Positions 1,477 through 41,200 of a stretch of 56,123 nt of DNA are shown here, in pieces; the stretch's first letter is position 1; each line of letters begins with the position of its first letter. Location: IMG/VR virus record IMGVR_UViG_3300009507_000021, positions 1-56,123 of that record, one strand, 5' to 3'. This DNA is from a virus. A model generated the notes under the pieces. The model was not told the DNA's origin, ran no database searches, and saw only the letters and a program-made list of their open reading frames with translations. Position numbers and translations under genes: made by a program.

Positions 1477-1478
1477 GT

Positions 1479-1667
1479 CTACGACCTATTTTGTTTTTCT
1501 CTGGCTTGTTTTTCTTCTTCCAATGCTTGCATTAACATAATAAGTTGTATTTCTCGCTCCCAAGGCATCATCATATCTAGTTCTGTCAAAGTATATTTAT
1601 GATGCCTCTGCAACAAAAAGTTAGTTTTATAATAATTTGCTAACTCTTCATGGGAGAGGCCAACTAA
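1479..1667 (-). CDS. -1 frame extension of the gp26-like gene (putative frameshift product tail)
   Basis: Starting at the slippery T-run, the -1 frame codes for 62 residues beginning LVGLSHEELANYY, passing a MPWERE motif, and ending in an acidic/basic helix (EEEKQAREKQ) with a stop at 1479-1481. The frame has a TGA nine codons before the slip and no ATG until the ATG triplet in its middle. No ribosome binding site is visible there, so most of the coding-like stretch lacks its own start. A -1 slip would append it to the 231-residue upstream protein, giving 293 residues. This is the G/GT tail-assembly-chaperone layout, immediately before a tape-measure-like gene. Alternatives are re-initiation at the internal ATGs (a short gp51-like protein) or an indel in the homopolymer. 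Confidence 0.6.
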   Translation of the reverse strand, partial: LVGLSHEELANYYKTNFLLQRHHKYTLTELDMMMPWEREIQLIMLMQALEEEKQAREKQNRS

Positions 1668-2359: not shown

Positions 2360-2374
2360 AATTTACTCCATGTG

Positions 2375-3040
2375 TTACCGATTAATAAAAATAGATGCTT
2401 TCTGTTTGCCGTTACTTACAGGTTCACCTTTCCAACTCTTGTATTCAAAACTCACAGTCACCGTATGAATCTCACCTGATCCATCTGCCATCTCGCTGGA
2501 TGAAACGTTGACAGGAAACGCACGATCAATAATCCAGTGGTAATTTGAAATAGCAGGTGTGGCTACATCAACATCAATATCAAGACTCAGATTGATTGGT
2601 CCTAACTTCTTTTCAAACTGCTTGTTGAATACAGGAAACCCTTTACCACGTTCTAACTGATATATGTGAAGCGGCGCTGTATATTTATCGGGATACTTGG
2701 CTTCAAATCTGGCTTCATCGTCCGAGTATTCGGGCAAAATGAACTGTTGCCATGACTCAAAATAATTTCTGGCACCCTGGTTGTTCAGAACACGAAATGT
2801 GGCTGAGATAGGTGGGTTGACATAACCATGAACAACTTTCTGTCGTGTGACACCAAGGTCACGTTCTACGCTGGTCAACTGACGGGAGGGTAAATTTATG
2901 TTACTGCACAAAAGCCCCATATCATATCCCGTAATGCCCGCTACTGTGGGAAACTTTACGAAATACAGATTGCTCTTGCTGAATCCACCACCGTCTGTTA
3001 TTGCAGACTTGATTTCGTCTACTGTGCCTAATTTAAGCAT
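2375..3040 (-). CDS. Tail tube family protein (gp54/gp19-like), likely baseplate-tube initiator
   Basis: This 221-residue protein has the T4 gp19 tube fold signature: a segment around LPSRQLTSVERDLGVT followed by VHGYVNPPISATFRV, then a YFESWQQFI helix and a C-terminal TVSFEYKSW strand. gp19 (163 residues in T4) polymerises into the tube; gp48 and gp54 are paralogues that cap the hub and start the tube. Its place near the divergent gp48-like gene, and its extra length, favour a gp54-like initiator over the main tube protein, but the two cannot be separated here. Its ATG overlaps the stop of the upstream gene by 8 bases (ATGCTTAA), which implies translational coupling. Confidence 0.65.
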   Translation of the reverse strand: MLKLGTVDEIKSAITDGGGFSKSNLYFVKFPTVAGITGYDMGLLCSNINLPSRQLTSVERDLGVTRQKVVHGYVNPPISATFRVLNNQGARNYFESWQQFILPEYSDDEARFEAKYPDKYTAPLHIYQLERGKGFPVFNKQFEKKLGPINLSLDIDVDVATPAISNYHWIIDRAFPVNVSSSEMADGSGEIHTVTVSFEYKSWKGEPVSNGKQKASIFINR

Positions 3041-3617
3041 TTATCTTTTTCCTAGAATCTTTGTATACCTGGTTCTTGTTACCTTGCCATTGTGCTGTTG
3101 GTAAGAACGTAGCAATCTCCCATTCAGGAGCAGGCACCTTTGCGAAGTTACCTTCCACTTGCGATGTTAGGTAGTGTTTGTAGCAGGGCCTAAAATATTT
3201 CATTGATGCCGCTCGGTTCAAAAAACTATATGTCACTCTGAACTTGGTATTCTCGTTATATTTTTTGTCGCTTGTCACACCCATCAGTTCATCAAGAAAC
3301 TTGGCTCTCAATGGTATGGGCAGATAGTGTAGATTCATGCCATAAAAACCTTTCTCAGCAGGTCCAATGGCAATAATGAGAGGAAACGAATCCCAATACG
3401 GAAGTGTCTTTCTATGCTTTGCATCGTAGAAAAACATATACATGTTGCCGGTAATCGTATCGCTCTCTTTTGAAATAGGTTCTTCCCGCATTAACTCACG
3501 CCTATTGACTCCCATTCTCTGCACTTTTTTGCGGAACCATGCGCGTGATTCTTTGGTGCGAGGCGTAATACCAGCACGAAATGCCTCTTGCTCTACCGTT
3601 TGAAAGAGATTACTCAT
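3033..3617 (-). CDS. Conserved T4-like protein, possibly gp2-like DNA end protector
   Basis: This is a 194-residue basic protein. It starts with a helical region containing an Arg-rich stretch (RKKVQRMGVNRRELM). The middle holds YWDSFPLIIAIGP and GFYGMNLHYLPIPLRAKFL, and the C-terminus holds EWEIATFLPTAQW and a basic tail. I recognise this as conserved in marine T4-like phages beside gp4/gp53. In T4 the order is 3-2-4-53, so a gp2-like role (protecting DNA ends in the filled head) is a reasonable positional guess, but no known motif proves it. It overlaps its neighbours on both sides by 8 bases, so it belongs to one translationally coupled minus-strand operon. Confidence 0.5.
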   Translation of the reverse strand: MSNLFQTVEQEAFRAGITPRTKESRAWFRKKVQRMGVNRRELMREEPISKESDTITGNMYMFFYDAKHRKTLPYWDSFPLIIAIGPAEKGFYGMNLHYLPIPLRAKFLDELMGVTSDKKYNENTKFRVTYSFLNRAASMKYFRPCYKHYLTSQVEGNFAKVPAPEWEIATFLPTAQWQGNKNQVYKDSRKKINA

Positions 3618-22307: not shown

Positions 22308-25300
22308 GTGTCTTCAAGACCTTTTAGATTTTCAAATTCTTTAGCCAATGATGGTGCGGTCAAAGAATTTCTGGTATCCGAAGAAGATTGGTTAGCCTAT
22401 CGTGCGGGTCTATATCTAAGTAATATTACCACCACTGAAGCAAGTTCACTCACATCTGGTCAAACAGCGAACAGTGTGGACGTTGGTACGTACATTGATA
22501 CCTTCTATGATGAGAATGCGGCGAGTGATCCACCTGTTACAAGAACACGAAACTATACAGTAGATGTTAGGTCCGTAGGTGGTGGTCATACCAATACATT
22601 TAGAAATCCCGTTGAGTTTCCACCGTTATGTTATGATGATGATACGATTATTATCAATGTCATCTTTGATACCGAAACTGCACCTACGGGCAATGGGTTT
22701 GAAGAACTTCAAGCCAGTTTAACGTTTAATACCAGTCCCGCTTATATTGTCACTAATGTCACTGCGACACCTGCCGCATCAAATATTAATGGTAATGTTG
22801 TCACCTGGGAGAAGTTTACCAATCCACGTTTAAAGGGTCAGTTCACCGCAACATATGAGATATCATTTACTCAGAACGTTGGCCTCTTTCAAGCGACTCT
22901 TGATGTATCATCACAAGATTCTGAAAACACACCCGCACAGGTAAGTTCTTCTTTTGTTGGAACAACACGGGTAGAAGATAGAAATGCGCCTGGCGCAAGC
23001 ACCATATCTCATCCGCTATACCAAAACAACAATCAAATACCTCTTCAGACAAGTAGTGAGAAAAGAAATCCAGTTTATTTTGATCGTGTGAGAAACGGTC
23101 TGAAAGAAATGAATGATAATGAACTAGAAGTGATGTGCGCACGAGTCATTTCTAACATTATGCAGAATGAAAGACCTGGTACGTACAGACTCTCCAACGA
23201 AGCGCCTAGTGCTGACTACACAGCCTATCTTGAAAACATCTTTACTGATACTCGGTCAGACGGTACTGCGATAACATACAGCATATACATCAAGACTTCA
23301 GATATAGTACCGACAGAAATAAGACCACTTGCAATCAAACGCAAGAACGATAATGTATTTGAAGCATTGCAAGAGATGACTGTACCTCAGATTGACTTCA
23401 CTTTAGGTGAACGATCTAAAAAAGTCATTATGGACACGGGCATTGGTACCTATCAGTTAAGAAGCAGTGCGCAAGGTGCTCCCACAGATACTGGTGTATG
23501 GCAACCCAGAGGCAAAGCCGTTGACTCGCGATTAAATTATGACTTTGCGGGTGGCTATGAGGGTGATCGGACCGAAGAATTCCAATATGAGTCTGAATAT
23601 CAGGCAACCTATATCGGCACTTATGTGGCTTCATATGAGGGCATTTATGTTAGTGAATATGAATCAGAGTATATCGCCTCTTATGTAGGTACATACACTA
23701 CAGAGTATGAAGGTTCATATGTCGGTGAATACATTTCAGGATACACGGGTTCGTACATCTCCGAATATGTGTCTGTGTATGAGGCACTCTATACAACTTC
23801 ATATGAAGGATCATATCTTGGTCAGTATGACGGCGCAATTGATGTAGAGTTTTTCTCTGACAAGTATGAAGGTTTACCTGTTGAGGAAGTCTATGAGCAA
23901 CAATTCTATACGGGTACAGTGTATGATTCAACCTATACAACCACCTATGATTCCAGTTATACAACTGGATACGAGTCTACTTATGAAGGAATTTACACAG
24001 GTCAAATAGAAGAGACCTATGAAGGATTCTATGAAGGCGATATTGCTGAACAATATATTGCCACTTACGTCGGACAAGTTGAAGAGTCTTACGCAACGAC
24101 ATATACTGGTCAAGTGCCTGAACAATATACCACACGATATGCTGGACAGATTGCTGAAGATTATGTGGGTGCATACACCGGTCAAGTCATAGAAGACTAT
24201 ACCACGTCTTATGTTGGCCAAGTACCCGAACAGTATGAAACTGCTTACACCGGTGGTGTTCCTGAACAATATGTCGGTGCATACACTGGTCAAGTCATAG
24301 AAGACTATACCACTGCTTACGTGGGTCAAGTGCCAGAACAATATGAAACAGCATATACAGGTCAAGTGCCTGAGCAATATGTCGGTGCATACACAGGTCA
24401 AGTGCCTGAGCAATATGTAGGAGCGTACACTGGTCAAGTACCCGAACAGTACGTCGGTGCTTATGTTGGTCAGGTAGAGGAAGATTATACAACTGCTTAT
24501 GTTGGTCAAGTGCCTGAGCAATATGTTGGCGCATACATCGGTCAAGTACCCGAACAATACACAACAGGTTACACGGGTCAAGTACCCGAAGATTATGTTG
24601 GCGCATACATCGGTCAAGTACCCGAGCAATATGTTGGGGCATACTCTGGACAGATACCCGAAGATTATGTCGGCTCTTATATCGGTCAGATACCCGAAGA
24701 TTATGTTGGTGCATATCAAGGTGAAATACCCGAAGATTATGTTGGATCATATGTTGGTCAGATAGCAGAACAATATGCGACATCTTACGTAGGTCAAGTA
24801 CCCGAGGATTATATTGGCGCTTATGTCGGTCAGATAGAAGAAGATTATGTTGGCGCTTATGTCGGTCAGATAGAAGAAGATTATGTTGGCGCTTACGTTG
24901 GTCAGATAGCAGAACAATATACGACTGGATACACGGGTCAAGTACCCGAAGATTATGTTGGCGCATATACTGGTCAAGTTCCTGAAGATTATGTAGGCGC
25001 ATATGTCGGTCAAATAGCAGAACAATATGCAACATCTTACGTTGGTCAAATAGCCGAAGATTATGTTGGTGCATATACTGGTCAAGTACCCGAGCAATAT
25101 GTAACATCTTATGTCGGTCAAGTGCCCGAAGATTATGTCGGTGCTTATGTCGGTCAAGTACCCGAACAGTATGAAACTGCTTACACCGGTGGTGTTCCTG
25201 AACAATATGTTGGTGCATATACAGGTCAAGTACCAGAACAATATGTTGGCGCTTACGTTGGACAAGTGCCCGAGCAATACACAACGTCTTATGTTGGTCA

Positions 25301-28300
25301 GGTAGAGGAATATTACACAACTGCTTACGTTGGACAAGTGCCCGAGCAATATGTGGGTGCATACATTGGTCAAATAGCAAAACAATATGTAACATCATAT
25401 GTCGGTCAAGTACCCGAAGATTATGTCGGTGCTTATGTTGGTCAAGTGCCAGAACAATATGTTGGTGCTTACGTCGGTCAAATAGAAGAGTTTTACACAA
25501 CAGGTTACACGGGTCAAGTACCCGAAGATTATGTTGGCGCATATACTGGCCAAGTTCCTGAAGATTATGTAGGCGCATATGTCGGTCAGATTCCTGAGCA
25601 ATACACAACGTCTTATGTTGGTCAGATTCCTGAGCAATATATTGGCGCTTATGTTGGACAGATAGAGGAAGATTACACAACATCATATGTCGGTCAAGTG
25701 CCCGAAGATTATGTCGGTGCTTATGTTGGTCAGATTCCTGAGCAATACACAACAGCATATGTTGGTCAAGTACCCGAACAATACACAACGTCTTATGTTG
25801 GTCAGGTAGAAGAAGTTTATGGTGCTGAGTACATTGGTCAAGTTCCTGAAGATTATGTTGGCTCTTACATAGGTCAAGTACCAGAAAACTACTTGGCTCA
25901 ATATGAAGGTCAAATATCTAAACCATATTCAGCAGAATATACCGGTCAAGTACCCGAAACTTACTTTGGAACTTACTCAAGAAACTTTGAAGGCACTTAT
26001 AGCCGAAACTTTGAAGGCACTTATGGCGGTCAGTACTCACGAGACTTTGTAGGGCAGTATTCAAGAAACTTTGAAGGCAATTATATTGGTCAATACGCTA
26101 GAGACTTTGTAGGGCAGTATTCAAGAAACTTTGAAGGCAATTATATTGGTCAATATGCTAGAAACTTTGCAGGCACTTTTAGTCGAAACTTTGAAGGCAC
26201 CTACATCGGACAGTATTCACGATTGTTTGCGGGGCAGTATGCACGAAACTTTGAAGGCAATTATATAGGGCAGTATTCTCGAAACTTTGCAGGCGTATAT
26301 TCAAGAAACTTTGAAGGAAGTTATGTTGGTCAGTATAGTAGAAACTTTGCAGGCACTTATAGTCGAAACTTTGAAGGTACCTATGGTGGTCAATACTCAC
26401 GAGACTTTGTTGGTCAATACGCACGAGCCTTTATTGGTCAATACACGGGCACATACGCACGAAACTTTGAAGGAAGTTATTCTCGGGCCTTTGAAGGCAA
26501 TTATATAGGCACATACTCGCGAAACTTTGCGGGTAACTATCTAAACAACTTCGCTGGTCAGTATACTGGTGCGTATAGTAGAAACTTTCTAGGCAACTAC
26601 GCACGAAACTTTGAAGGAAGTTATGTTGGTCAGTATAGTAGAAACTTTGCGGGTAACTATGCCAGAAACTTTGCGGGTACATATACTGGTACCTATTCCC
26701 GAAACTTTCTTGGTAATTATGCCAGAAACTTTTCTGGTCAATACACTGGGACATACTCTCGAAACTTTCTTGGTAACTACTCACGAAACTTTGCTGGACA
26801 ATACACTGGCACATACTCCCGAAACTTTCTTGGTAATTATGCCAGAAACTTTTCTGGTCAATACACTGGCACATACTCTCGAAACTTTCTAGGCAACTAC
26901 GCACGAAACTTCGCTGGTCAGTATACCGGCAATTATGCCAGAAACTTTGCTGGTCAATACGCGCGAGAGTTTTTGGGTAATTATCTTGGTAACTATGCCC
27001 GAAACTTTACTGGTTTCTATGCTCGAACCTTTCTAGGCGCTTATGTGGGCAACTACTCACGAAACTTTGCTGGTAACTATGCCAGAAACTTTACTGGTCA
27101 ATATACGGGCAACTACGCAGGAAACTTTACTGGTAACTATGCCAGAAACTTTGCTGGTCAGTATACTGGTAACTATGCCAGAAACTTTTTAGGTAACTAT
27201 GCCAGAAACTTCGCTGGACAATACACCGGTAACTACGCTAGAAACTTTTTAGGCAACTACGCTCGAAACTTTGCGGGTCAATATACTGGTCAGTATAGTA
27301 GAAACTTTTCTGGACAATATACTGGTCAGTATAGTAGAAATATTACTAACAACAATACGCCTGCAGGCAGTGCTACAATAACTATCGGCTTGACCCCCAA
27401 CCCTTATGTGTCCGATGAATATGGTTATATGTTCGGTGGCGGCTCTGGATCTATTAGTCCATCATCGTTTTCGTTTGGTATTCCATCTGTCACCATGTAT
27501 AATTTTAGTAAATTTGTACCAATCGGCGCGCCGCAGAACCTGCCCATAATCAGGGTATCGGCGGGGGGTACTCACCCTCAGTTCACCTTTACTCGTGTTC
27601 AGATAGTAGGTGCAAGTGGTACTCATCCGACAGGACCTTACTCAAGCCCCACAAAGAACTTATATACTTCTCCCAGTTTTGGTAGTGGACCCGCCGGCGG
27701 TTATTTTGTGAGTACCCCACCCTTCGGGCCCAGCCCTCTGACCAATTGGACGTGGTCAGTGCCGTACCCATTCGGAGGTTGGACTGACAGTTTTGATAAC
27801 CCCGTAGGAACATCATTTGGTATCAATTTCTTTGCACAGTCAACTACGAGCCAAAACTTTTCTGGACAATATACTGGTCAGTATAGTAGAAACTTTTCTG
27901 GTCAATACACCGGTAACTACGCTAGAAACTTTGCGGGTAATTATGCCAGAAACTTTGCTGGTCAGTATACCGGTAACTACGCCAGAAACTTTGCGGGTAA
28001 TTATGCCAGAAACTTCGCCGGTCAGTATACCGGCAACTATGCCAGAAACTTTGCAGGTAACTATGCCAGAAACTTTGCGGGTACATATGCTGGTAACTAT
28101 GCTCGAAACTTCTTAGGTAACTATGCCAGAAACTTCGCTGGCGCTTACGTTGGCGGCTATGCCAGATTCTTTCTTGGTCAGTATAGTAGAAACTTTGCTG
28201 GTAATTATCTTGGCGCATACACCCGAAACTTTACTGGTAACTATTCTCGTCAGTTTGCTGGTCAATACACCGGTAACTACGCTAGAAACTTTGCAGGTAA

Positions 28301-31300
28301 CTATTTAAACAATTTTGCTGGTCAATATACTGGTCAGTATAGTAGAAACTTTGCGGGTAATTATTTAAACAATTTTGCGGGACAATATACTGGCAACTAC
28401 GCACGAAACTTTGCGGGTAACTATCTAAACAACTTTGCTGGTCAATATACTGGTCAGTATAGTAGAAACTTTGCGGGTAACTATCTAAACAACTTTTCTG
28501 GTCAATACACCGGTAACTACGCTAGAAACTTTCTTGGTAATTATGCCAGAAACTTTCAAGGCACTTATATTGGTCAGTATAGTAGAAACTTTGCGGGTAA
28601 CTATGCAAGACAGTTTTTTGGTCAATACACCGGCAACTACGCACGAAACTTTCTAGGCAACTATTTAAACAACTTTTCTGGTTCATATTTAGGTTCGTAT
28701 TCAAGAGTCTTCATAGGACAGTATTCAAACAACTTTGCTGGACAATATACTGGTGCGTATAGTAGAAACTTTGCAGGTACGTATAGTAGGCAGTTCGGTG
28801 GTAATTACATTGGTCAATACTCTCGAAACTTTGTAGGACAGTATGCACGAAACTTTGAAGGCACTTATACTGGTCAATACGCACGAGATTTTACAGGTGA
28901 ATATGCACGAAACTTTGAAGGCACTTATACTGGACAATACGCACGAAACTTCACTGGTAACTATTCAAGAAACTTTGAAGGTTCGTATACGGGTCAATAT
29001 GTTAGAGACTTTGTAGGACAGTATTCAAGAAACTTTGAAGGCACTTATACTGGTCAATACGCCCGAAACTTCACTGGTACGTATACACGAAACTTTGAAG
29101 GCACTTATACTGGACAATACGCACGAAACTTCACTGGTACGTATAGTAGGCAGTTCGGTGGTAATTACATTGGTCAATACTCTCGAAACTTTGTTGGTCA
29201 GTATTCACGCGACTTCATTGGTGGCTATGAGGGCTTTTATGAAAGAACTCAATCTATTACTTACGTTGGAGAATACGAACGACAAGAGAGTGTTGTTTAC
29301 CAGGGCTTGTATGAACGTCAACAAGACATTACATACCAAGGGCTTTACGAAAGAAGTCAGACCATAGGATATCAAGGCTTATATGAACGCCAACAGGATA
29401 TTACCTATGAAGGCTTGTATGAACGTCAACAGGACATCACATACGAAGGTCTCTACGAACGCCAGCAGGATATTACATACACTGGACTCTATGAACGTCA
29501 ACAGGATATTACATACACGGGCTTCTACGAACGTCAACAAGATGCTACCTATGAGGGCTTGTACGAACGTCAACAGGATATCACATACGAAGGTCTTTAC
29601 GAACGCCAGCAAGATATTACCTACACTGGATTGTATGAGCGAACTCAAGAGATCACTTATACTGGACTTTACGAAAGAACTCAAGGTATAACGTACACGG
29701 GATTTTATGAAAGACAGCAGGATCTAACGTATGAAGGTCTTTATGAACGCCAGCAGGATATCACATACACTGGATTGTATGAGCGCCAGCAGGATATTAC
29801 TTATGAAGGCTTGTACGAACGCCAGCAAGATATCACATATGAAGGTCTCTATGAGAGACAACAAGATATCACCTACTCGGGCTTATACGAACGCCAGCAG
29901 GATATCACTTACGAGGGTCTTTATGAACGTCAACAGGACATCACTTATGAAGGCGCTTACGAAAGAACACAGGAAATAACTTACGAAGGTATCTACGGTC
30001 GTACTCAAAACATAACTTATGAAGGTTTGTACGAACGCCAGCAGGATATTACTTATGAAGGCTTGTATGAACGTCAACAGGATATCACTTATGAAGGCGC
30101 TTACGAACGAACAGAAGAGATAACGTACACCGGCTTGTACGAAAGACAACAAGACATAACTTATGAAGGTTTGTACGAACGTCAACAGGACATCACATAC
30201 GTTGGATTATACGAACGAACAGAAGAGATAACGTACACAGGTCTGTATGAAAGAACTCAAGGTATAACCTACGAAGGTTTCTATGAACGTCAACAAGACA
30301 TTACATACACTGGCTTGTACGAACGTCAGCAAGATATTACCTATCAAGGTTTCTATGAGCGGCAACAAGACACTACGTACACCGGATTATATGAGCGGCA
30401 ACAAGACATTACTTATGAGGGTCTCTATGAGAGACAACAAGATATCACATACACTGGTTTGTATGAACGCCAGCAGGATATAACTTACACTGGATTATAC
30501 GAACGCCAGCAGGATATAACTTACACTGGATTATACGAAAGAAGTGAAGAAGTTACCTATGAGGGTCTCTATGAGAGACAACAAGATATCACATACACTG
30601 GTTTGTATGAACGAACTCAAGGTATAACGTATGAAGGCCTTTATGAGAGACAGCAGAACATAACGTATGAAGGTCTCTATGAAAGACAACAAGATATCAC
30701 CTACACAGGTGCTTATGAAAGAACCGAAGAAATAACCTATGAAGGCTTATATGAAAGAACCGAAGAGATAACCTATGAAGGTTTGTATGAGCGAACTCAA
30801 GAGATCACTTATGAGGGTCTGTATGGTCGTACTCAAAACATAACTTACGAGGGTCTTTATGAACGACAGCAAGACATCACTTACTCTGGTGCTTACGAAA
30901 GAACGCAGGAAATAACTTACGAAGGTATCTACGGTCGTACTCAAAACATAACTTACGAGGGTCTTTATGAACGACAGCAGGATATCACCTACTCAGGTGC
31001 TTACGAAAGAACTCAAGAGATCACATACACTGGTCTCTATGAGCGACAGCAGGATATTACTTATGAAGGCTTGTACGAACGAACCGAAGGGATAACGTAC
31101 ACTGGATTTTATGAGCGATCACAGGACACTACTTACGAAGGCTTGTACACTCGTGAATCGCCTGAAGAATACACTGGATTTTATGAGAGAGAATCTATAG
31201 AATCTTATGACGGTGAGATTTATGAGACGACATATACCAGTGACTACTCTTCAGCATATACCTCTGAGTATGAGTCATCATATCTCGGAACATATACTGG

Positions 31301-31748
31301 CTTTTATATACCGTCATATCAATCCACTTATGTAGGAATATATGTTGCAACTTACGATGCAATAGGTTATACTGGTAGTTATGAGACAACTTACACAGGT
31401 CTCTATGATGCGGCATATGATTCTGAGTATGAAGCACTGTATGAATCGGCTTATGTGGGTGAGTACGGTGGTGATATTATTACAGCCAACTATGATGGGG
31501 CATCATATGATGGTGCGGGTTACACTAGTGTCTATGATTCTGGTTACAGTGGAATATTTGAAGGCGCGCCTGGCGCAGGCGGTAATAATCTCAATCCTCT
31601 TGATAAAGAACTGCCTTACGAGGGTGCTATATACACTAGTACATACAGCGGTACTGAGTTTTATTCTGGTGTATACGGCGATAGAGACAATCTGTTACAG
31701 CCGCCCGTGACTTACGAGATATGGACTCTCTGGTGTAGAGTCGCTTAA
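22308..31748 (+). CDS. Giant Tyr/Gly tetrapeptide-repeat tail fibre, 3146 residues
   Basis: The start is GTG (22308), as the conserved-looking N-terminus RPFRFSNSLANDGAVKEFL follows at once and no in-frame ATG is near; the ribosome binding site is weak. Layout: residues 1-420, a non-repetitive virion-attachment region; 425-560, degenerate YxxxY repeats; about 560-1225, 12-residue units like YVGAYTGQVPEQ; 1225-1680, units such as YARNFAGQYTGN; 1680-1848, a non-repetitive insert; 1849-2305, the second YARNF-type array; 2306-2960, units like YERQQDITYEGL; 2960-3146, degenerate Tyr-rich sequence and a C-terminus ending EIWTLWCRVA. All arrays reduce to a four-residue [Y/F]xGx rhythm. An adhesin or long-fibre role is inferred from size, repeats and neighbours. 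Similar, shorter [YF]xGx repeats occur in marine T4-like phages, recalled from memory. Confidence 0.8.
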   Translation: MSSRPFRFSNSLANDGAVKEFLVSEEDWLAYRAGLYLSNITTTEASSLTSGQTANSVDVGTYIDTFYDENAASDPPVTRTRNYTVDVRSVGGGHTNTFRNPVEFPPLCYDDDTIIINVIFDTETAPTGNGFEELQASLTFNTSPAYIVTNVTATPAASNINGNVVTWEKFTNPRLKGQFTATYEISFTQNVGLFQATLDVSSQDSENTPAQVSSSFVGTTRVEDRNAPGASTISHPLYQNNNQIPLQTSSEKRNPVYFDRVRNGLKEMNDNELEVMCARVISNIMQNERPGTYRLSNEAPSADYTAYLENIFTDTRSDGTAITYSIYIKTSDIVPTEIRPLAIKRKNDNVFEALQEMTVPQIDFTLGERSKKVIMDTGIGTYQLRSSAQGAPTDTGVWQPRGKAVDSRLNYDFAGGYEGDRTEEFQYESEYQATYIGTYVASYEGIYVSEYESEYIASYVGTYTTEYEGSYVGEYISGYTGSYISEYVSVYEALYTTSYEGSYLGQYDGAIDVEFFSDKYEGLPVEEVYEQQFYTGTVYDSTYTTTYDSSYTTGYESTYEGIYTGQIEETYEGFYEGDIAEQYIATYVGQVEESYATTYTGQVPEQYTTRYAGQIAEDYVGAYTGQVIEDYTTSYVGQVPEQYETAYTGGVPEQYVGAYTGQVIEDYTTAYVGQVPEQYETAYTGQVPEQYVGAYTGQVPEQYVGAYTGQVPEQYVGAYVGQVEEDYTTAYVGQVPEQYVGAYIGQVPEQYTTGYTGQVPEDYVGAYIGQVPEQYVGAYSGQIPEDYVGSYIGQIPEDYVGAYQGEIPEDYVGSYVGQIAEQYATSYVGQVPEDYIGAYVGQIEEDYVGAYVGQIEEDYVGAYVGQIAEQYTTGYTGQVPEDYVGAYTGQVPEDYVGAYVGQIAEQYATSYVGQIAEDYVGAYTGQVPEQYVTSYVGQVPEDYVGAYVGQVPEQYETAYTGGVPEQYVGAYTGQVPEQYVGAYVGQVPEQYTTSYVGQVEEYYTTAYVGQVPEQYVGAYIGQIAKQYVTSYVGQVPEDYVGAYVGQVPEQYVGAYVGQIEEFYTTGYTGQVPEDYVGAYTGQVPEDYVGAYVGQIPEQYTTSYVGQIPEQYIGAYVGQIEEDYTTSYVGQVPEDYVGAYVGQIPEQYTTAYVGQVPEQYTTSYVGQVEEVYGAEYIGQVPEDYVGSYIGQVPENYLAQYEGQISKPYSAEYTGQVPETYFGTYSRNFEGTYSRNFEGTYGGQYSRDFVGQYSRNFEGNYIGQYARDFVGQYSRNFEGNYIGQYARNFAGTFSRNFEGTYIGQYSRLFAGQYARNFEGNYIGQYSRNFAGVYSRNFEGSYVGQYSRNFAGTYSRNFEGTYGGQYSRDFVGQYARAFIGQYTGTYARNFEGSYSRAFEGNYIGTYSRNFAGNYLNNFAGQYTGAYSRNFLGNYARNFEGSYVGQYSRNFAGNYARNFAGTYTGTYSRNFLGNYARNFSGQYTGTYSRNFLGNYSRNFAGQYTGTYSRNFLGNYARNFSGQYTGTYSRNFLGNYARNFAGQYTGNYARNFAGQYAREFLGNYLGNYARNFTGFYARTFLGAYVGNYSRNFAGNYARNFTGQYTGNYAGNFTGNYARNFAGQYTGNYARNFLGNYARNFAGQYTGNYARNFLGNYARNFAGQYTGQYSRNFSGQYTGQYSRNITNNNTPAGSATITIGLTPNPYVSDEYGYMFGGGSGSISPSSFSFGIPSVTMYNFSKFVPIGAPQNLPIIRVSAGGTHPQFTFTRVQIVGASGTHPTGPYSSPTKNLYTSPSFGSGPAGGYFVSTPPFGPSPLTNWTWSVPYPFGGWTDSFDNPVGTSFGINFFAQSTTSQNFSGQYTGQYSRNFSGQYTGNYARNFAGNYARNFAGQYTGNYARNFAGNYARNFAGQYTGNYARNFAGNYARNFAGTYAGNYARNFLGNYARNFAGAYVGGYARFFLGQYSRNFAGNYLGAYTRNFTGNYSRQFAGQYTGNYARNFAGNYLNNFAGQYTGQYSRNFAGNYLNNFAGQYTGNYARNFAGNYLNNFAGQYTGQYSRNFAGNYLNNFSGQYTGNYARNFLGNYARNFQGTYIGQYSRNFAGNYARQFFGQYTGNYARNFLGNYLNNFSGSYLGSYSRVFIGQYSNNFAGQYTGAYSRNFAGTYSRQFGGNYIGQYSRNFVGQYARNFEGTYTGQYARDFTGEYARNFEGTYTGQYARNFTGNYSRNFEGSYTGQYVRDFVGQYSRNFEGTYTGQYARNFTGTYTRNFEGTYTGQYARNFTGTYSRQFGGNYIGQYSRNFVGQYSRDFIGGYEGFYERTQSITYVGEYERQESVVYQGLYERQQDITYQGLYERSQTIGYQGLYERQQDITYEGLYERQQDITYEGLYERQQDITYTGLYERQQDITYTGFYERQQDATYEGLYERQQDITYEGLYERQQDITYTGLYERTQEITYTGLYERTQGITYTGFYERQQDLTYEGLYERQQDITYTGLYERQQDITYEGLYERQQDITYEGLYERQQDITYSGLYERQQDITYEGLYERQQDITYEGAYERTQEITYEGIYGRTQNITYEGLYERQQDITYEGLYERQQDITYEGAYERTEEITYTGLYERQQDITYEGLYERQQDITYVGLYERTEEITYTGLYERTQGITYEGFYERQQDITYTGLYERQQDITYQGFYERQQDTTYTGLYERQQDITYEGLYERQQDITYTGLYERQQDITYTGLYERQQDITYTGLYERSEEVTYEGLYERQQDITYTGLYERTQGITYEGLYERQQNITYEGLYERQQDITYTGAYERTEEITYEGLYERTEEITYEGLYERTQEITYEGLYGRTQNITYEGLYERQQDITYSGAYERTQEITYEGIYGRTQNITYEGLYERQQDITYSGAYERTQEITYTGLYERQQDITYEGLYERTEGITYTGFYERSQDTTYEGLYTRESPEEYTGFYERESIESYDGEIYETTYTSDYSSAYTSEYESSYLGTYTGFYIPSYQSTYVGIYVATYDAIGYTGSYETTYTGLYDAAYDSEYEALYESAYVGEYGGDIITANYDGASYDGAGYTSVYDSGYSGIFEGAPGAGGNNLNPLDKELPYEGAIYTSTYSGTEFYSGVYGDRDNLLQPPVTYEIWTLWCRVA
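23980..25970 (+). repeat. Coding array 1: about 55 units of 36 bp (YVGAYTGQVPEQ type)
   Basis: In-frame 12-residue units with consensus Y-[VT]-[GT]-[AS]-Y-[TVI]-G-Q-[VI]-[PAE]-E-[QD]. Protein units are nearly constant while codons vary freely (for example GGT/GGC and TAT/TAC), so the array is conserved mainly at protein level. Confidence 0.92.
25971..27340 (+). repeat. Coding array 2a: YARNF-type units (8- and 4-residue blocks)
   Basis: In-frame blocks YARNFAGN / YSRNFEGT (8 residues) alternate with YTGQ or YIGQ (4 residues), mostly as 12- or 20-residue supra-units. Two adjacent 60-base copies (26041-26100 and 26101-26160) differ at one synonymous base. Confidence 0.92.
27302..27340 (+). repeat. 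39-bp direct repeat flanking the inserted domain, left copy
   Basis: Perfectly identical to 27854-27892. The offset is 552 bases (184 codons), so the frame is kept. It encodes NFSGQYTGQYSR, a standard array unit. Confidence 0.9.
27341..27853 (+). other. Non-repetitive inserted domain within the giant fibre
   Basis: About 170 residues without the [YF]xGx rhythm interrupt the YARNF array. The segment is Gly/Ser/Pro/Phe-rich, with YGYMFGGGSGSISPSSFSFG near its start, FTFTRVQIVGASG in the middle and TNWTWSVPYPFGG near the end. It looks like a small beta-sandwich domain of the kind seen as modules in marine phage fibres. Base composition is visibly richer in GC than the flanking arrays (GGCGCGCC, CCGCCGGCGG). 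It is bounded by a 39-bp perfect direct repeat. Confidence 0.75.
27854..27892 (+). repeat. 39-bp direct repeat flanking the inserted domain, right copy
   Basis: Perfect copy of 27302-27340, at the point where the YARNF array resumes. Confidence 0.9.
27893..29220 (+). repeat. Coding array 2b: YARNF-type units after the insert
   Basis: Continuation of array 2a, with frequent YLNNFAGQ variants in the first half and RNFEGTYTGQYARNF units toward the end. It closes with YSRDFIGGYEG at the switch to array 3. Confidence 0.92.
29221..31150 (+). repeat. Coding array 3: about 53 units of 36 bp (YERQQDITYEGL type)
   Basis: Twelve-residue units with consensus Y-E-R-[QT]-Q-[DE]-I-T-Y-[ETQ]-G-[LAF]. The composition is acidic and Gln-rich, unlike arrays 1 and 2. 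A 47-bp perfect duplication occurs at 30825-30871 and 30933-30979, an offset of three units. Confidence 0.92.
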
Positions 31749-31760
31749 TGAGGAAGATCA

Positions 31761-32204
31761 ATGAATCACTATTATTACCAAGACAATGCGTTTTGGACCA
31801 ATGATACAAAGACCGCTCTTAAATGCATTAGAGTCAGTAGACTAGAGAACGGCAAAGAAAAAACTGAAGTATTAACCAGCGAACAAGGCGATGGTATTTG
31901 GGATTCTATCATTAGTGAATTAACCATTCCTGGTATTGATGCATCAAGTGAAAAGCGAAGACAAGAGAAAGAGAATAGTCGTGCCACTCAAATCGTTCGG
32001 GACGAGCAACAAAAGCAAGCCAAAAAACTAGAATCGTTATTTGACCTCAAGATAAAAGCGTTTGAGATAGAAGCAATTAAGAATTGTGAGAACAGAAAAC
32101 TCCGTTCTAAATTACGCCGAGCAGAAAATGAAGTTGAAATGAATGCCCTTGCGACTTTAATTATTGCTATTGATATGGGCATATTGGAAGATCCAGATGT
32201 CTGA
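31761..32204 (+). CDS. Small coiled-coil protein downstream of the giant fibre
   Basis: This 147-residue protein has an AGGAAG ribosome binding site 5 bases before the ATG. Residues 1-60 start NHYYYQDNAFWTNDTKT and contain VLTSEQGDGIWDSIISEL; residues 66-130 form a highly charged coiled coil (EKRRQEKENSRATQI, later ENRKLRSKLRRAENE). It ends with a hydrophobic helix, LIIAIDMGILED. No family was recognised. Its place just after the fibre and before the glycosyltransferase suggests a fibre assembly chaperone or a linker, but this is inference. Confidence 0.65.
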   Translation: MNHYYYQDNAFWTNDTKTALKCIRVSRLENGKEKTEVLTSEQGDGIWDSIISELTIPGIDASSEKRRQEKENSRATQIVRDEQQKQAKKLESLFDLKIKAFEIEAIKNCENRKLRSKLRRAENEVEMNALATLIIAIDMGILEDPDV

Positions 32205-32940
32205 AGGTTATGTTGTTGTAGCGTCAACCAAAAAACTGTTTTACGATATGGCAATCAATCTGATTGATTCTATCAAAGATTTTCATCCTGACGCTCAGTG
32301 CGCACTCTTTACTGAAGAAAGATTTCTTGATGGTAAAGAAAAAATAGTGGATCATCTGGGCTTCATTGAAGATCATAAGCGTTCCAAACTCAAAGGTATG
32401 GCAATGAGTCCATACGACAAGACGTTTTATATTGATGCCGACTGTGAAGTTGAGCATGAAGACATTGCAAAAGTTTTTGATGAATTGAAAGACAATGATT
32501 TAGTTTTTACCGGCTTGCCCGAAGACCGACACTATTGTTATGCAGAGGTATTTTTTGAGGGGGCGCGAAAGCCTGATGGAAAACCCGGCGGCTTTGATCT
32601 GTGTGGTGGTGTGTGTTTGTATGATATGACTAACCCGCTTGTACGAGAATTTATGAAAGAGTGGTATGAACTGACCGTAGAACAATATGCGGGCAGATGG
32701 TGGCCGACGAAAGCAGACGGCACTGAAGATCTAGAGAATTATCCACAATCATTCAAACGATGGGATCAATTCTCACTCTGGTGGTTGGTCAACAAAGTAC
32801 CCAAGTACAAAGATCTCAAGGTAAGTATTTTTGAAGACGATGCGAGATGGAATTATTTCAATGGATACTTGTATAAGCACAACCAAGATCCAGTTGTCAT
32901 AAGGCACTACTCTAATATACAAATGAAAAGAGACCAATGA
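32197..32940 (+). CDS. Glycosyltransferase-like protein (GT-A fold, DxD motif)
   Basis: I choose ATG 32197, which gives 247 residues, a GGAAG site upstream and an 8-base overlap (ATGTCTGA) with the previous gene; an upstream in-frame ATG at 32164 would lie deep in that gene. The start SEGYVVVASTKKLFYDMA and the motif KTFYIDADCEVEHED (DAD at residues 80-82) fit a nucleotide-sugar transferase, with the metal-binding DxD. LCGGVCLYDMTNPLVREFM is typical of GT-A acceptor regions. Donor and target are unknown. It could modify the fibre next door, another virion protein, or the host surface. It is coupled to the next gene by ATGA. Confidence 0.72.
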   Translation: MSEGYVVVASTKKLFYDMAINLIDSIKDFHPDAQCALFTEERFLDGKEKIVDHLGFIEDHKRSKLKGMAMSPYDKTFYIDADCEVEHEDIAKVFDELKDNDLVFTGLPEDRHYCYAEVFFEGARKPDGKPGGFDLCGGVCLYDMTNPLVREFMKEWYELTVEQYAGRWWPTKADGTEDLENYPQSFKRWDQFSLWWLVNKVPKYKDLKVSIFEDDARWNYFNGYLYKHNQDPVVIRHYSNIQMKRDQ

Positions 32941-33626
32941 ATCATAGTTTCAGAAAAGGAATGCAAGACATTCCGCTCAATAATTATGCTTTAAGCAAAC
33001 TCAAAGAAGTAGAGTGGTTAATAACAGATGACAACTATCTAGTAACAGAACCTACTTGTTGGAATCAGAGACACGAACAAGAACGGTTTACTTCTGACGA
33101 AGAATTGTTTAAAATAATGGAGATGGGACGAGGTCATGACGGCTTTCCCGAAGCCATTTATGGTTACTCCATGACAAACAATTTAAAGTTTAAACCCGAC
33201 AGCACTAGTGCACAAAAGGCAGAGTTTGGCAAGCGTGTTCAGAGTATGATGAGCAATATCATGCTTTCTTTTAACTTCAAGACCAACGCTTTGTTCACTG
33301 TCTATCCTCCTGGTGGATATATCTCGTGGCATAACAACGCAAACGCACCCGCATACAATTTTATATTTACATGGTCTGAGACTGGCGATGGTTGGTTCAA
33401 GTATTGGGACATGGAGAAGAAAGCGATTGTGACAATGCATGATACTCCGGGATGGCAATGCAAGGCAGGTTTCTTTGGTGCCTATTCACATGGTGAAGAG
33501 CATTTGTTTTATCATGCCGCATCAACAAATTGCACGAGAATGACCGTTGCCTTCACACTTTCCCGCGATGAAACATCGTTAAATTGGCAAGATGACATCA
33601 TTGAAGAGATAAGTTCTTATAAATAA
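32937..33626 (+). CDS. 2-oxoglutarate/Fe(II) oxygenase-like protein
   Basis: This 229-residue protein has a C-terminal double-stranded beta-helix pattern. YPPGGYISWHNNANAPAYNF gives H132-x-N134, followed by FIFTWSETGDGWFKYWD, GWQCKAGFFGAYS, and the distal LFYHAAST (H193) with CTRMTVAFTLSRD (R201). The H...H...R layout is that of Fe(II)/2OG hydroxylases, with R eight residues after the second His, but the usual HxD is HxN here. The N-terminal 80 residues are unassigned. Coupling to the glycosyltransferase by an ATGA overlap suggests that the two act on the same substrate. Enzyme activity is not certain, given the Asn. Confidence 0.65.
   Translation: MNHSFRKGMQDIPLNNYALSKLKEVEWLITDDNYLVTEPTCWNQRHEQERFTSDEELFKIMEMGRGHDGFPEAIYGYSMTNNLKFKPDSTSAQKAEFGKRVQSMMSNIMLSFNFKTNALFTVYPPGGYISWHNNANAPAYNFIFTWSETGDGWFKYWDMEKKAIVTMHDTPGWQCKAGFFGAYSHGEEHLFYHAASTNCTRMTVAFTLSRDETSLNWQDDIIEEISSYK
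33618..33625 (+). promoter_or_regulatory. T4-type late promoter (TATAAATA) for the second adhesin cluster
   Basis: An exact TATAAATA at the very end of the oxygenase-like gene, 37 bases before the ATG of the next gene. Confidence 0.72.
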
Positions 33627-33654: not shown

Positions 33655-34005
33655 ATGGCACACTATGAAGATCTAACGATAGATCAAGGCACAGATGTTG
33701 CAATAGAAATCTACTTGGTTAATCCAGACGGCACTAAGAAAGACCTCACTGCACACACCGCTGCCGCTTCCATGGCTACCAGGTATGATGCGCCAGCGGG
33801 TGAAAAGATCGCCTTCACTGCCGCGATAGGATCACCCGCAACAGATGGCATAGTAAATCTATCACTTACCAATACAGAATCTCAGGCATTAAATCCTAAA
33901 AAACGTTATGTATATGATGTAGAAATATCTGTGGGCTCCGATCCAGTAGTTGTGGAGAGAGTTCTACAGGGGAAAATAACCGTTTCTCCTTCTGTCACTG
34001 AGTAA
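33655..34005 (+). CDS. Small Ig-like virion protein
   Basis: This 116-residue, beta-rich protein starts HYEDLTIDQGTDVAIEIYLV, then TAHTAAASMATRYDAP, TDGIVNLSLTNTESQAL and RYVYDVEISVG, ending RVLQGKITVSPSVTE. This matches a compact beta-sandwich family common among marine T4-like phage structural genes, recalled from memory. The terminal KITVSPSVT is typical of the family. It is probably a baseplate or fibre connector. It stands first in the operon from the late promoter just upstream and is 3 bases from the next gene. Confidence 0.65.
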   Translation: MAHYEDLTIDQGTDVAIEIYLVNPDGTKKDLTAHTAAASMATRYDAPAGEKIAFTAAIGSPATDGIVNLSLTNTESQALNPKKRYVYDVEISVGSDPVVVERVLQGKITVSPSVTE

Positions 34006-35212: not shown

Positions 35213-38200
35213 ATGGCAGCACGTAAAAAAATATTATTGCCTAGAAGCGATATTCCTAACCGAGCACCGACGGTCAACGAGATTGATTACGGTGAAATTG
35301 CTATCAATACGCATGATGGCAAGGCGTTTATCAAGCGCGATCAAAACGGTGAGGTAACAATAGAATCAATCGGTTCTGAACAGGTTGAGAATGTTTATTA
35401 CGTCTCTAAATCAGGAGTTTACGGTAACGACGGTCGATCATTGATGAACTCAATGAAGACACTAGACTCGGCTGTTGCCACTGTGTTGACCAAGCAAGGC
35501 TTTAAGTTTGATAAAATTACGTGTGAACGTGACACGCAGTTAATCATGGACGCTGTCCGTTATGACATGGTATTAGAAACAAACTTTAACTCTGTTAATG
35601 CTGGACTCGCATATAAAAGAGGCAACGCCGGCAAAGTAACAACTGAACAGAAGTATCAGACTCGCCGAGCAATCAATGAAGAACGTGTTGGCATGTTATC
35701 AGCGCCTCTGGTGGCATCAAATCCAACTGCAACAGCACGAGTAGGTGCAGGCTTTACAGAACTTATTGACATTTTCTATGACGGTGAGCCTGATGATTAT
35801 TACTTTACAAATCCACCTATAGAGTCACAGACAGACGCAAACAATGCATCACAAATTCTTCAAGAGAACAGAGCGGCGATTCAAGATGCTGTACTGTCCT
35901 ATCTGAACAATGCCAATCTAGATCCTTATGACTCTGCTAAATGCGAAAGAGATATAGGATTGATTCTTGATGCAGTCGTGGATGATCTGATAACAACGTC
36001 TGACTATAGAACTATTACTGCCGCAAATGCATATCTTCGTGCAAACTCTGCCTATGTGTTGAGTGATCAGTTTGAAATGACTGTGGCGGCATTAGAGTTT
36101 GCGAAGGGTCAAGTACAGTCTCTTGTTGGTGTACCAAGTGATGCGCTTATTGCTACGTTCTTTGATCGGGTAATTAATGTTGTCAATGGAACAACGACAA
36201 CTTATCCTGCTCCAACATATCCTACGACTGGTACTGCTACGTATCAAACGGCTGATAGAATTACGGCAAGTGCGGCACTGATAACAAATCGTGCGACTCT
36301 TGTATCAGACACTACGGCATATATTACTGCCAACTATCCTACTTTAGACTACGACTCAGCGGCATGTGAAAGAGACGTTGGTTATATTATAGATGCTTTA
36401 GCGCACGATGTCAAGTACGGTGGTAATGGTGGAACACGAGTAAACGCAGAGGCTTACTTTGTTGGCACAGAGTCACAGTTAGGCTTTGGTGAAGGCACTG
36501 CCACAATTGCGGCTTATAATGATCTAAAAACACGAATTAATGTTGTTGTTACTACCGCACCTGAGCAAACTGATATCGGTGCTCTGATAGACGAAATCAC
36601 GGGTGTTATTACTGCGGGTGATCTGACTGGTTTGTCGGCACCTGTTGCGATTGATCTAGATGGTTATCTCAGTGGTGTTCTCAGCGAAAGAACGATAATT
36701 CTAACCAACAAGTCTACGATTGAAGATGATACAATTGAGTATGTGGATGATAACTGGGCAATCAAGAACACTAATATCAAGTCATACGATGCTGGTAAGT
36801 GTTCACGAGATGTAGGTATTATTCTCGATGCCGTCCGAAGAGACTTTATTTTAGGAACAGACTACTGGACGATTACCGCAGGTAACTCATATCTTCGTGC
36901 GAATACAGCATACTTGAAATCTGAACAGAATTATGCTACTATTGAAGCAGTAAAGTTCGCAAGAGACACTGTTAAGACACTACAGAATGGAATCCCAGCA
37001 ACCAATGTTTTCAGTTCAGTTCAGCAGACCACACTTGATACTTTATTTGAGCGTGTTATTGATGTTATTGACGGCACAGTTACCACTCCAATTACAGCGA
37101 TCACGTATCCAACAGCAGGCGATTATGCATCGGTGGCAGGTAGAGCCACGCAATCAGCAAATATTATAACATCAAGAACTACTCTTGTCAACAACTTAAC
37201 GTCATTTGTTTCAACTACGTATCCTACATTTACTTACGACCAAGCGGCATGTGAGGCAGACACAGGCTTTATCATTGACGGCTTGGTGGCAGACTTACTG
37301 TACGGTGGTAACACAGCAACAAGACAGGCGGCATTTGCTTATTATGTCGGTGCTGTATCTCAGTTAGGTGCTGGCGAAGAGAAAGTAACGATTGCGGCAT
37401 ACAACAATTTGGCTACAGACATCAAAGCCCTCGTTGGTGTCACCGAAGATGCTCGGGTAGATGAACTCATAGCAATCATCACCACGGTGATTGAAGAAGG
37501 TGACACGTCCAGTCTTCTTCTCAATGAAGTAGAAATAACAACAACAGGGTTGACAACTACCGAATATGATGTTATACTAAGTGAAACGCCTGATATACAG
37601 ACTGCTACACTTGCATTCGTAGATAAAACATTCATACCAGAACTACCAGATTACGATCAAGTTAAATGTTATCGTGACGTAGGTCTCATCCTAGATGCTG
37701 TAAAACGAGATCTGATTACAGGATCTACTTACAACACCATCACTGCGGGTTTCTCATATCTTCGTGCCAATGCGTCTTATGTCCAATCGGATCAGTTAGA
37801 AAAGACGCTTAAAGGTATTAATTATGCCCGAGATGAAGTCAAGAAACTAGTTGGTGCGTCCGATGCAAGTATCGATATATTGTTTGCACGAGTCACCGAT
37901 GTTCTCAATGGAATTGTAACCACTTACGAAACACCAACTTATACTGCTCCTGGTGGTACTCACGACGGTTCACTAGGCGGAGACAGGATTACTGCGGTAT
38001 CAAATCTTCAAACCAATCGATCGGCTGCTGTAACCGCTCTTATTGATTATATTGATCTAGAATATCCTGCACTTGAGTATGACACAAATAAATGTAAGCG
38101 AGACGCAGGTTATATTATTGACGCCATATGTCACGATCTTCTTTATAGTGGTAACACTGCCGCAAGACAGAACGCCGCTTCATACTACGTAGGCAGTGTA

Positions 38201-41200
38201 AGTCAATTAGGTCCATTTGAAACAACAGCAACAGTTGCTGGTTACGAACAATTTAAAAGCATACTGTCAACTTACACCACTGGTCTTGACACTACAATCA
38301 TTACCGAAATTCAAGCATCGCTTGACATTATTATTGATGTAATTGAAGATGGTAATTTAGACAATCTTCCAGCGGAAGTAGAAATATCAACCGCAGGGTT
38401 GACAAGTACAGATTTTGATGCTATAACAACCGCAACATTACAGATTCAAGATGATACAATATTATTCATCAATGATTTATTTTTTAATCCTGCATACGAT
38501 CAAGCAAAATGTGCGAGAGATATTGGTCTCATTGTAGATGCATTATCACTCTTCATTATTGCAGGAAGCGAAGCACCAGATCGTTTCGTTGCATTGTCGT
38601 ACCGACGACCTAGTGCACAAAATGTTTATTTGAAACAAAGGGCTGCAACACTGGCGGCAGTTAACTATGCAGAAGATTTATTAAAGACTGCATTGACCAA
38701 TGGCGGTGGTGATCCACTCAAAACAAATGACCCGTTCGATAGAATTCGTGAAGGAATCAACGCAGGAGTATACACTTCTGGTGTAGATCGTGCTTGGGTT
38801 AACCCGAATACTTCATTGTACACCGGTACTGTCGGTGGTGTAGACAGTACGGGTTCTACCGCTAACACGATTGCGGCACAGAACACACTGAATCTGCAAA
38901 ACAATGCCTATGCTGATGCCGTCATAAACTATGTTAACAATACATTAGGCATTACCTCGTTTGATAATACCATATGTAAAGAAGATTTGATCATTCTTTT
39001 GCAAGCACTTGCATATGATGTAGATACCGGCACGAACTGGTGTATTCGCCAATTTGCTGAGAGTTATTTTACGGGTGTTGTCAATGCTTTAGGCAATGAT
39101 AGTGCCGAAATAGAAGCAACCATTGCCGCATATGAATATCTGAAAACTTATCTTACGACTAATCTACCTCTTGATGCTAACCTAGCCCAAGGCACAGATC
39201 AAACAGCATCCATTCTTGCGTACATCACGGGCGAAATTGATATTGTAATTGACGCAATCAAAGCAGACACCACACAAAACATGCCGGCATTGGTATTGCC
39301 TTCAACAATAGGTGAGGATGCTACTGACATAGCAGGCTTTAATGCAGTTCAAACAGCAAAGACTCAAACGCAAAATGCAGTCATTGATTTCGTTAATGAT
39401 TCTAATCCAGTGGATGCTTTTGATGATGAAAAATGTGCACGAGACTCTCTCTTAATTATTGATGCGATTTGTCTTGACATCCAGAACCAAACCAATTATA
39501 ATAGCATTACTGCTGGTTTAGCCTATCAAAGAGGCAATGCAAATAAAGTCCAAAGTGACCAGTTAAAATACACCATCCTTGCGATCAACTATCTTCGTGA
39601 TCTTATTAACGGCACGCCTAGCATTGATTCTACCACAAAGACTTATGTGACCGCTCGGACTCTAGAGATTACTGATCTGCTGACTCAAAGCACCGAGTAT
39701 GGTAAAGTAGATGGTGATCCAATATCATATAACACGACCAATGTTGTTCTTGATAAAGTCAATGCTGCCAATGCACTTCGTGCCAACAGGCGTCAACTTC
39801 AGAAGCAAATCACCACTTGGATCCAAGTCAACTACGACACCTTTGAATATGATCCCGATGCGTGTGAACGGGATATTGGTTATATTGTTGATGGACTTGT
39901 TCATGATATTCTATATGATGGACAATATGCTGCCGAAACTATAGCCCGATCTTACTGGGTTGAGACAGATCTTAACATAGAAAACAATCCAAATCAAAGC
40001 GAGAATCTGGACGGTGTTGCTGACACTTATAAGAATCAATTAGGTCAGAACGAAGTAGTAACCACTGCCGCGGCATATGCGCAACTTAAGGCTTTCATCA
40101 ATCAAATCGTGACGACTACTACCGAGCAAAGCGCTATTGGCAATCTGATGGACATCATTATTGATTCTATTACTGCGAGTGATAACACAGCGATTCCATC
40201 AACACCAATCTCATTTTTAAACGATCCGTTGTTGATTCAGGCGCAGAAAACAATCTACAAAGATCAGACAGTTCTTTATGCGAATCAGATATTCCCCGCA
40301 TATACTTACAATCAATCTAAGTGTAGACGTGACGTTGGATTTATTCTTGACGCACTGACATATGATATCAAGTATGGTGGTAACAGTGCTACGTCCATTG
40401 CGATGAGATCTTACTTCTCTATATTCAACAATGGATATGGTGATCTGTTAGGTCAGAATGAATTCACAATGACCATTAAAGCATATAGACATCTGAAGAG
40501 AAACATTCTCAAGAATTACTTTGAGACTCTGGACGCAGGCATTGAAACTACGAAGAACAATCTGCTTGATATTATTCTCAAAGCAATCATTCAAACAAAT
40601 CAAGGCACATTTACACTAGGCAATTTCTTTGGTGCTGACAGATCTTTAGACTTGTATCAGTACAACTATCCTACAGGATTGGCAGTTGGATATGATTCAC
40701 AAACATTCCCAGATCTGATTGCTTTGGGTCATAAAGTGACATACAATGCTTTGTATCTAGCCCACCAAGAATTCAACGTTGGTGCGAGTGAAAGACTTAC
40801 GATTGTCCGAGCGACAAATGCTGTCGCAAATAACCAAGGGACAGACACGACGATCTTCTTGAAGTCTGGTGATTATGTTATCAATAACCCGATTAAACTA
40901 CCACCCAAGACTGCGATTATTGGTGATGCACTCAGAACAACAACCATTCGTCCTAAGAACGTTGATAGTGATATCTTCTGGGCAGACAATGGTGTATACA
41001 TCAAAGAGATTACCTTCCGTGATCATCAGGATGGTGCCGCTGTTCTCGCATTTGATCCTCGTGTTGATTCGCCCGGAGCAGGACCATTTATTACACAGTC
41101 ACCTTATGTACAGAACTGTACGTCTTTGACTTCATCTGGTATTGGTTTACGAATTGATGGAAGCAAAGTGTCTGGTCTCCGAAGTATGGTACTAGACGCA

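Follow-up and report, generated by a model that had tools for sequence, protein, structure and literature searches.

In the long tail fibre of phage T4, which measures 145 nm, the gp37 chain comes out of the knob, runs to the tip, turns and ends at the knob again, with two stem stretches (residues 882-931 and 960-1009) flanking the tip (932-959) and both termini at the knob (PMC9603124). The needle formed by gp37 is six-stranded and antiparallel (PMC9659904). Here we analysed a 56,123-nucleotide stretch of viral DNA, in the following called the window, which derives from an IMG/VR record of a virus fragment of 56 kb and encodes a giant repetitive protein of 3146 residues. As far as can be read from sequence, this protein and its relatives resemble gp37 in the stem-tip-stem order, the equal arms and the antiparallel in-register pairing, and as a further likeness a gene for a fibre-assembly chaperone lies near the fibre gene. 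The arms of gp37 comprise 50 residues, whereas those of the window fibre comprise ~1250 and are thus ~25 times longer, and an aromatic/Gly/Arg code is found in place of the HxH iron motifs of gp37. We consider it very probable that a T4-like marine phage carries this protein as a fibre on its virion and that the array forms one antiparallel hairpin.

The only clear named relative is CDS0201 of Phage C48C1 (OQ984149, unclassified Kyanoviridae), a protein of 3347 aa that is annotated only as 'hypothetical protein'. It shares with the window fibre a homologous N-module (42.6% identity over the 145 residues 264-408 of the window protein), the kind of array, a similar C-terminal end and the cassette of downstream genes, but differs by an Arg/Ser-rich code and by five extra domains, which are located in the returning arm only. 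A structural protein of Synechococcus phage S-RIM2 likewise follows a hydrophobic-x-Gly-x four-residue rhythm with its Val/Leu-Thr-Gly-Asn repeats; however, the stretch is short, has neither an aromatic ladder nor a homologous N-module, and its 33% identity over 137 residues is due to composition. No description of the fibre type was found in the open-licence literature.

The fibre gene lies in a T4-like tail module encoding baseplate hub, tail tube, tube cap and connector proteins, a gp6-like wedge protein (PHROG 219), a gp5-like lysozyme and the fibre-assembly chaperone. For the gp6-like baseplate protein, the nearest match was that of C48C1, followed by those of Pelagibacter and Methylophilales phages. 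None of the ten virus records was found to contain psbA, which leaves a cyanobacterial host without support. The tetrad register of the protein gives the zone order Z0, Z1 (12-mer), Z2a (20-mer), insert, Z2b (20-mer), Z3 (12-mer) and Z4 (Table 1). Profile searches with the N-module and the tip gave no PHROG or Pfam match, and nothing meaningful was retrieved from the PDB by sequence when Z2, the N-module, the tip or an N-module profile served as query. Two Pfam matches of the whole protein, NA-iREase3 and DUF1677, were rejected as low-complexity hits. On the opposite strand of Z1, a 497-codon open frame (24295-25788, minus strand) mirrors the repeat codons and has no signs of a gene.

Table 1. 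Zones of the fibre protein and genes of the downstream cassette in the window.
Feature	Positions	Strand	Residues	Remarks
Fibre ORF	22308-31748	+	1-3146	GTG start; 3146 aa in one reading frame
N-terminal non-repeat module (N-module)	22308..23585	+	1-426	predicted phage-proximal base
Z0	23586..24077	+	427-590	irregular acidic Tyr tetrads; base of outgoing arm
Z1	24078..25961	+	591-1218	outgoing arm; 12-mers YVGA-YVGQ-VPEQ; net charge -13.4 per 100 residues
Z2a	25962..27341	+	1219-1678	outgoing arm; basic 20-mers; 460 residues
Tip domain	27342..27854	+	1679-1849	171 aa; located exactly midway in the array; predicted to form the distal tip
Z2b	27855..29225	+	1850-2306	returning arm; basic 20-mers; 457 residues
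Z3	29226..31205	+	2307-2966	returning arm; acidic 12-mers YERQ-QDIT-YEGL
Z4	31206..31487	+	2967-3060	irregular acidic Tyr tetrads; base of returning arm
C-terminal tail	31488..31748	+		ends TYEIWTLWCRVA
147-aa protein	31761..32204	+		first cassette gene after the fibre gene; homologues in the same place
Putative glycosyltransferase	32197..32940	+		DxD-like YIDAD; weak Glycos_transf_2 match, synteny
Invariant HN...H...R protein	32937..33626	+		2-oxoglutarate/Fe(II) oxygenase-like by eye only
Predicted fibre-assembly chaperone	33655..34005	+		PHROG 3304, synteny

Tyr or Phe occurs at positions i and i+4 in 395 cases, compared to 112 +/- 9 (maximum 140) in 500 shuffled sequences, which confirms the Y/F four-residue rhythm assigned to this 3146-residue ORF in a preliminary description. 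Tetrads of the type [YF]xxx[YF] cover 2076 residues, for which the proposed start with Tyr or Phe holds; it fails for one third of the tetrads in Z1 (VPEQ) and Z3 (QDIT), which have no aromatic residue. Three different array chemistries were also claimed and are borne out by a net charge per 100 residues that changes from the acidic Z1 to +6.3 in Z2 and -11.6 in Z3. A 12-residue supra-unit, suggested for every array, describes Z1 and Z3 (self-identity 0.65 and 0.78, respectively), whereas Z2 is built from 20-residue units (self-identity 0.75/0.72 vs 0.42/0.46 at lag 12). The picture of three arrays needed correction: the tetrad register is broken once, by the non-repeat tip domain, which had been missed and splits Z2 into almost equal halves, and irregular acidic Tyr arrays (Z0 and Z4) add to the three arrays counted. 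Collagen-like Gly at every third residue was not found, the self-identity peaks lying at 4, 8, 12 and 20 and none at 3, and His is absent from all array zones.

A search with an alignment of the N-module found 27 viral loci, which are metagenomic and partly redundant, and whose proteins range from 850 to over 3500 residues. The family members have in common the N-module, [Y/F]xxx arrays and the C-terminal ending, which reads ETYTLYVR[VL]A in the relatives. Over the N-terminal 426 residues, L008 and L010 are 92% and 90% identical to the window protein, and a diverged relative, L039, carries at the same place in its array an insert 60% identical to the window tip. A whole-gene nucleotide search of a phage collection gave no match. 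With more than 20 loci plus Phage C48C1, the earlier suggestion of shorter relatives in marine phages, and of a repeat type that may not be new, proved correct, and the family seems to be common among T4-like phages that have not been cultured. In L030, L031, L033 and L034 a large repeat domain is inserted in the N-module; that of L033 matches Pfam FG-GAP_2. These inserts would be further side domains, situated at the fibre base.

Misassembly is known to be frequent in repeat arrays, and an artefact of assembly or repeat expansion could draw on two irregularities among the relatives. In L010 (10001-12656) a stretch of Z1 is read in another frame before the original frame resumes, reflecting a compensating frameshift pair or an assembly error, and C48C1 CDS0201 has an exact repeat of ~74 residues at ~2049-2123, which lies in one of the gaps of the pairing deduced below and may have arisen from an overlap error during assembly of OQ984149. 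Nevertheless, the 3146-aa ORF was also detected in four other IMG/VR contigs (L005, L006, L007 and L009), identical save for the start residue or one substitution, and therefore is not a one-off assembly error. As diverged relatives keep the same architecture as well, the probability of an artefact is close to nil.

In 13 full-length proteins (the window and 12 complete relatives), the tip occupies a relative position of 0.496-0.502 along the array. In the window the outgoing arm has 1252 and the returning arm about 1250 residues, the end of the latter being set by hand, which gives 1252/1251 for an end at 3100 or 1252/1275 for a 22-residue tail and matters only for the last 20-odd residues of the returning arm. 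Over the 13 proteins, with arms from 266 to about 1,275 residues, the two arm lengths measured from the turn core correlate with r = 0.9995 (slope 1.017, median difference 5 residues). The turn cores behind this value were partly picked by eye, whereas a fully automatic tip definition (r = 0.990) and the register scans described below are independent of them. Both arms also change together between relatives: compared to the window, L039 has a Z2a longer by 75 and a Z2b longer by 77 residues, leading to Z2 halves of 535 and 534 residues around its insert, and from L022 the arms grow by 118/119 residues to L026 and by 133/132 residues to L028. The Z3 of L039 is shorter than that of the window. 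In the window the zones mirror each other, acidic 12-mers facing 12-mers and basic 20-mers facing 20-mers. Similarity in arm composition, as opposed to complementarity, was rejected as a general mirror signal, as it is true for the window and reversed in the sister clade. In L016, L017 and L018 the tip is reduced to a short Pro-rich turn, e.g. GPPSPPIGPDPGD, which in L017 comprises 16 residues, indicating that a large tip domain is unnecessary for the turn.

For the analysis of antiparallel pairing, residue i was placed opposite residue S-i. Cross-arm Arg/Gly and Gly/Gly correlations rose sharply only where the offset was that of the mirror and were otherwise flat over +/-160 residues. Pooled mutual information was highest for the offsets +2 and 0, counted from the base. 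In the peak register, each of Y/F, G and R faces another of these three residue types and avoids its own, and R is almost never found opposite anything besides Y/F or G. The base-anchored register +2 was the best of 121 offsets in all 12 relatives scanned, and a blind scan of ~500-2900 mirror centres per protein led to the same centre by summed score, again in 12/12; as the family members are related, these 12 tests are not fully independent. When the returning arm was shuffled in 12-residue blocks, the observed score was reached in 0 of 1000 cases for each protein (z 4.3-9.5). Since the rule had been learned from the same proteins, a log-odds table was trained on one half of the family, using the assumed register of that half, and the other half was scanned with it. 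Performed both ways, this recovered the exact centre in 12/12, mostly with about twice the score of the runner-up.

In Z2 of the window, S (i+j) = 3526 (0-based) was the best of 401 registers. At this register the Arg residues of the outgoing arm stand opposite Phe in 44 of 44 cases and the Tyr residues opposite Gly in 68 of 68, and for L039 the best of 401 registers gave 39/40 and 80/81, respectively. The corresponding tetrad tables place YxR opposite FxG and YxG opposite YxG, with no Arg opposite Arg. Extension of the Z2 register into the acidic zones is possible without a slip and brings VPEx of Z1 opposite YERx of Z3, with the Arg residues of Z3 diagonal to Asp/Glu of Z1 in 51 of 53 cases at i+j=3528. 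Z1 and Z3 are strictly periodic, and their register is therefore deduced by continuity from Z2 and not independently proven; covariation of irregular Z1/Z3 units was too weak to fix it there. No clear pairing register was found for the base arrays Z0 and Z4. In C48C1, dynamic programming carried out without supplying the insert positions paired residues 267-1260 of the outgoing arm (994 residues, gap-free) with six blocks of the returning arm, and the gaps between these blocks are its five inserted domains, which had been located independently by loss of periodicity.

These data bear on a one-way fibre, in which the whole array would be a linear shaft, either a beta-solenoid or a parallel trimer, with three surface chemistries along its length. 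Short tandem repeats are generally known to be frequent in parallel trimeric and solenoid fibres, and a 12-residue unit could make up a solenoid coil, with which neither the 20-residue unit of Z2 nor the mirror code agrees. As such a shaft leaves the central insert, the equal arms, their co-varying lengths and the cross-arm code unexplained, and as the best parallel pairing scored far lower than the antiparallel one in 12/12, we regard it as very unlikely. The single fold with changing surface chemistry proposed earlier is half right, the zones being the two halves of a predicted hairpin (Z1 with Z3 and Z2a with Z2b) and not three consecutive segments. Where stacking of Tyr at every fourth residue had been proposed, the data instead give a code across the strands, with Tyr opposite Gly and Phe opposite Arg.

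For the antiparallel hairpin we propose that the chain would leave the proximal N-module, extend over ~1250 residues as a beta strand, turn in the 171-residue tip domain and return in register over another ~1250 residues, ending beside the N-module. The strands would be held together by the code on one face, in which aromatic residues stand opposite Gly or Arg and like rarely opposite like; in the basic zone of the window it is nearly strict (Tyr:Gly and Phe:Arg), and in the acidic zones Glu/Asp is positioned diagonal to Arg. An aromatic residue opposite Gly is reportedly a favourable beta-sheet pairing (Merkel and Regan 1998), and Phe:Arg may represent a cation-pi contact. In analogy to T4 gp37, three chains probably intertwine to a six-stranded needle, and its tip would then bind the host. 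With a rise of 0.2-0.34 nm per residue, 1250 residues would lead to a fibre length of roughly 250-425 nm, compared to the 145 nm of the T4 fibre.

The i+j rule fits pairing within one chain and pairing between chains equally, and the same antiparallel register could thus be formed in trans, either by domain swapping in a dimer or in an oligomer with more intertwining. The gp37 chains of T4 twist round a neighbour before they turn back (PMC9603124), which is in line with this possibility. As pairing in cis is most simply achieved by a central turn or tip domain, trans pairing appears rather unlikely, though it deserves consideration, and the arms presumably pair within one chain.

AlphaFold2 was run on monomers. 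For L027 (850 aa, 11 sequences), part of the alpha/beta N-module reached a pLDDT of ~70-80, the arrays remained at ~22 with the register absent from the model, and a Foldseek search of this model against PDB and BFVD returned nothing. The window tip with 60-residue arms had a pLDDT of 30 throughout; its model pairs strands 37-56 with 224-243 and 61-69 with 211-219 (i+j = 280), corresponding to S = 3526, and this low-confidence model may thus weakly support the register. For the arrays, these low-confidence monomer predictions confirm no fold. The pLDDT of ~22-30 across the arrays would fit a disordered, sticky low-complexity Tyr/Gly spacer with no defined fold, and disorder had been named beforehand as an observation that would speak against a fibre. 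A spacer of this kind, however, gives no reason why every relative should keep equal arms and a code that stays in register for hundreds of residues; the code argues strongly against disorder, which we rate as highly improbable.

Regarding a possible homology to gp37, the Collar domain (PF07484), which T4 gp37 itself matches, was not detected in six scans with the N-module, and an hhalign comparison of the N-module with the C-terminal region of gp37 indicated no relation (probability 0.1%). The stem region of gp37 contains seven HxH motifs and the arrays of the window protein none, since without His in the arrays HxH iron motifs cannot occur. As neither Collar nor HxH was found, the family is not filed as a gp37 homologue. 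By eye, a PGF..M motif and a C-terminal YxVRxA ending are alike in the N-module proteins and gp37. The comparison suggests that a needle built like gp37 can have arms ~25 times longer, and it raises the questions of how arms of 1250 residues fold and keep their register and how two parts of a gene that lie far apart come to grow in step. The chances are about even that the array is a new fold, a very long antiparallel beta zipper with a simple two-strand code (Tyr:Gly, Phe:Arg and Glu diagonal to Arg; in the sister clade, Arg faces Tyr or Gly) that keeps the arms in register. In such a zipper, arm length and the positions of side domains would evolve through matched insertions in both strands, and the fibre would possibly be modified by the glycosyltransferase-like and oxygenase-like enzymes of the neighbouring genes. 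Topology and register of this fibre can be read from single sequences, where long repetitive fibres usually defeat annotation and prediction, and the pairing code could guide the design of long programmable beta-hairpin fibres.

The cassette downstream of the fibre gene (147-aa protein, glycosyltransferase-like protein, oxygenase-like protein and chaperone) is present wherever the sequence of a family locus extends far enough downstream, and its position is shared by C48C1 and the family loci L016-L028. The chaperone assignment is based on a match to PHROG 3304 'L-shaped tail fiber protein assembly' with E 5e-12. Pfam Glycos_transf_2 was matched weakly in 7 of 8 homologues of the putative glycosyltransferase (best E 0.0011), and the oxygenase-like protein had no Pfam or PDB match. 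Although these enzyme assignments are weak, the fibre might be hydroxylated and glycosylated by the neighbouring enzymes. Further downstream, a second giant fibre gene (35213-43534) encodes a protein of 2773 aa without the tetrad rhythm, whose matches to cyanophage tail fibres are partial and of low identity.
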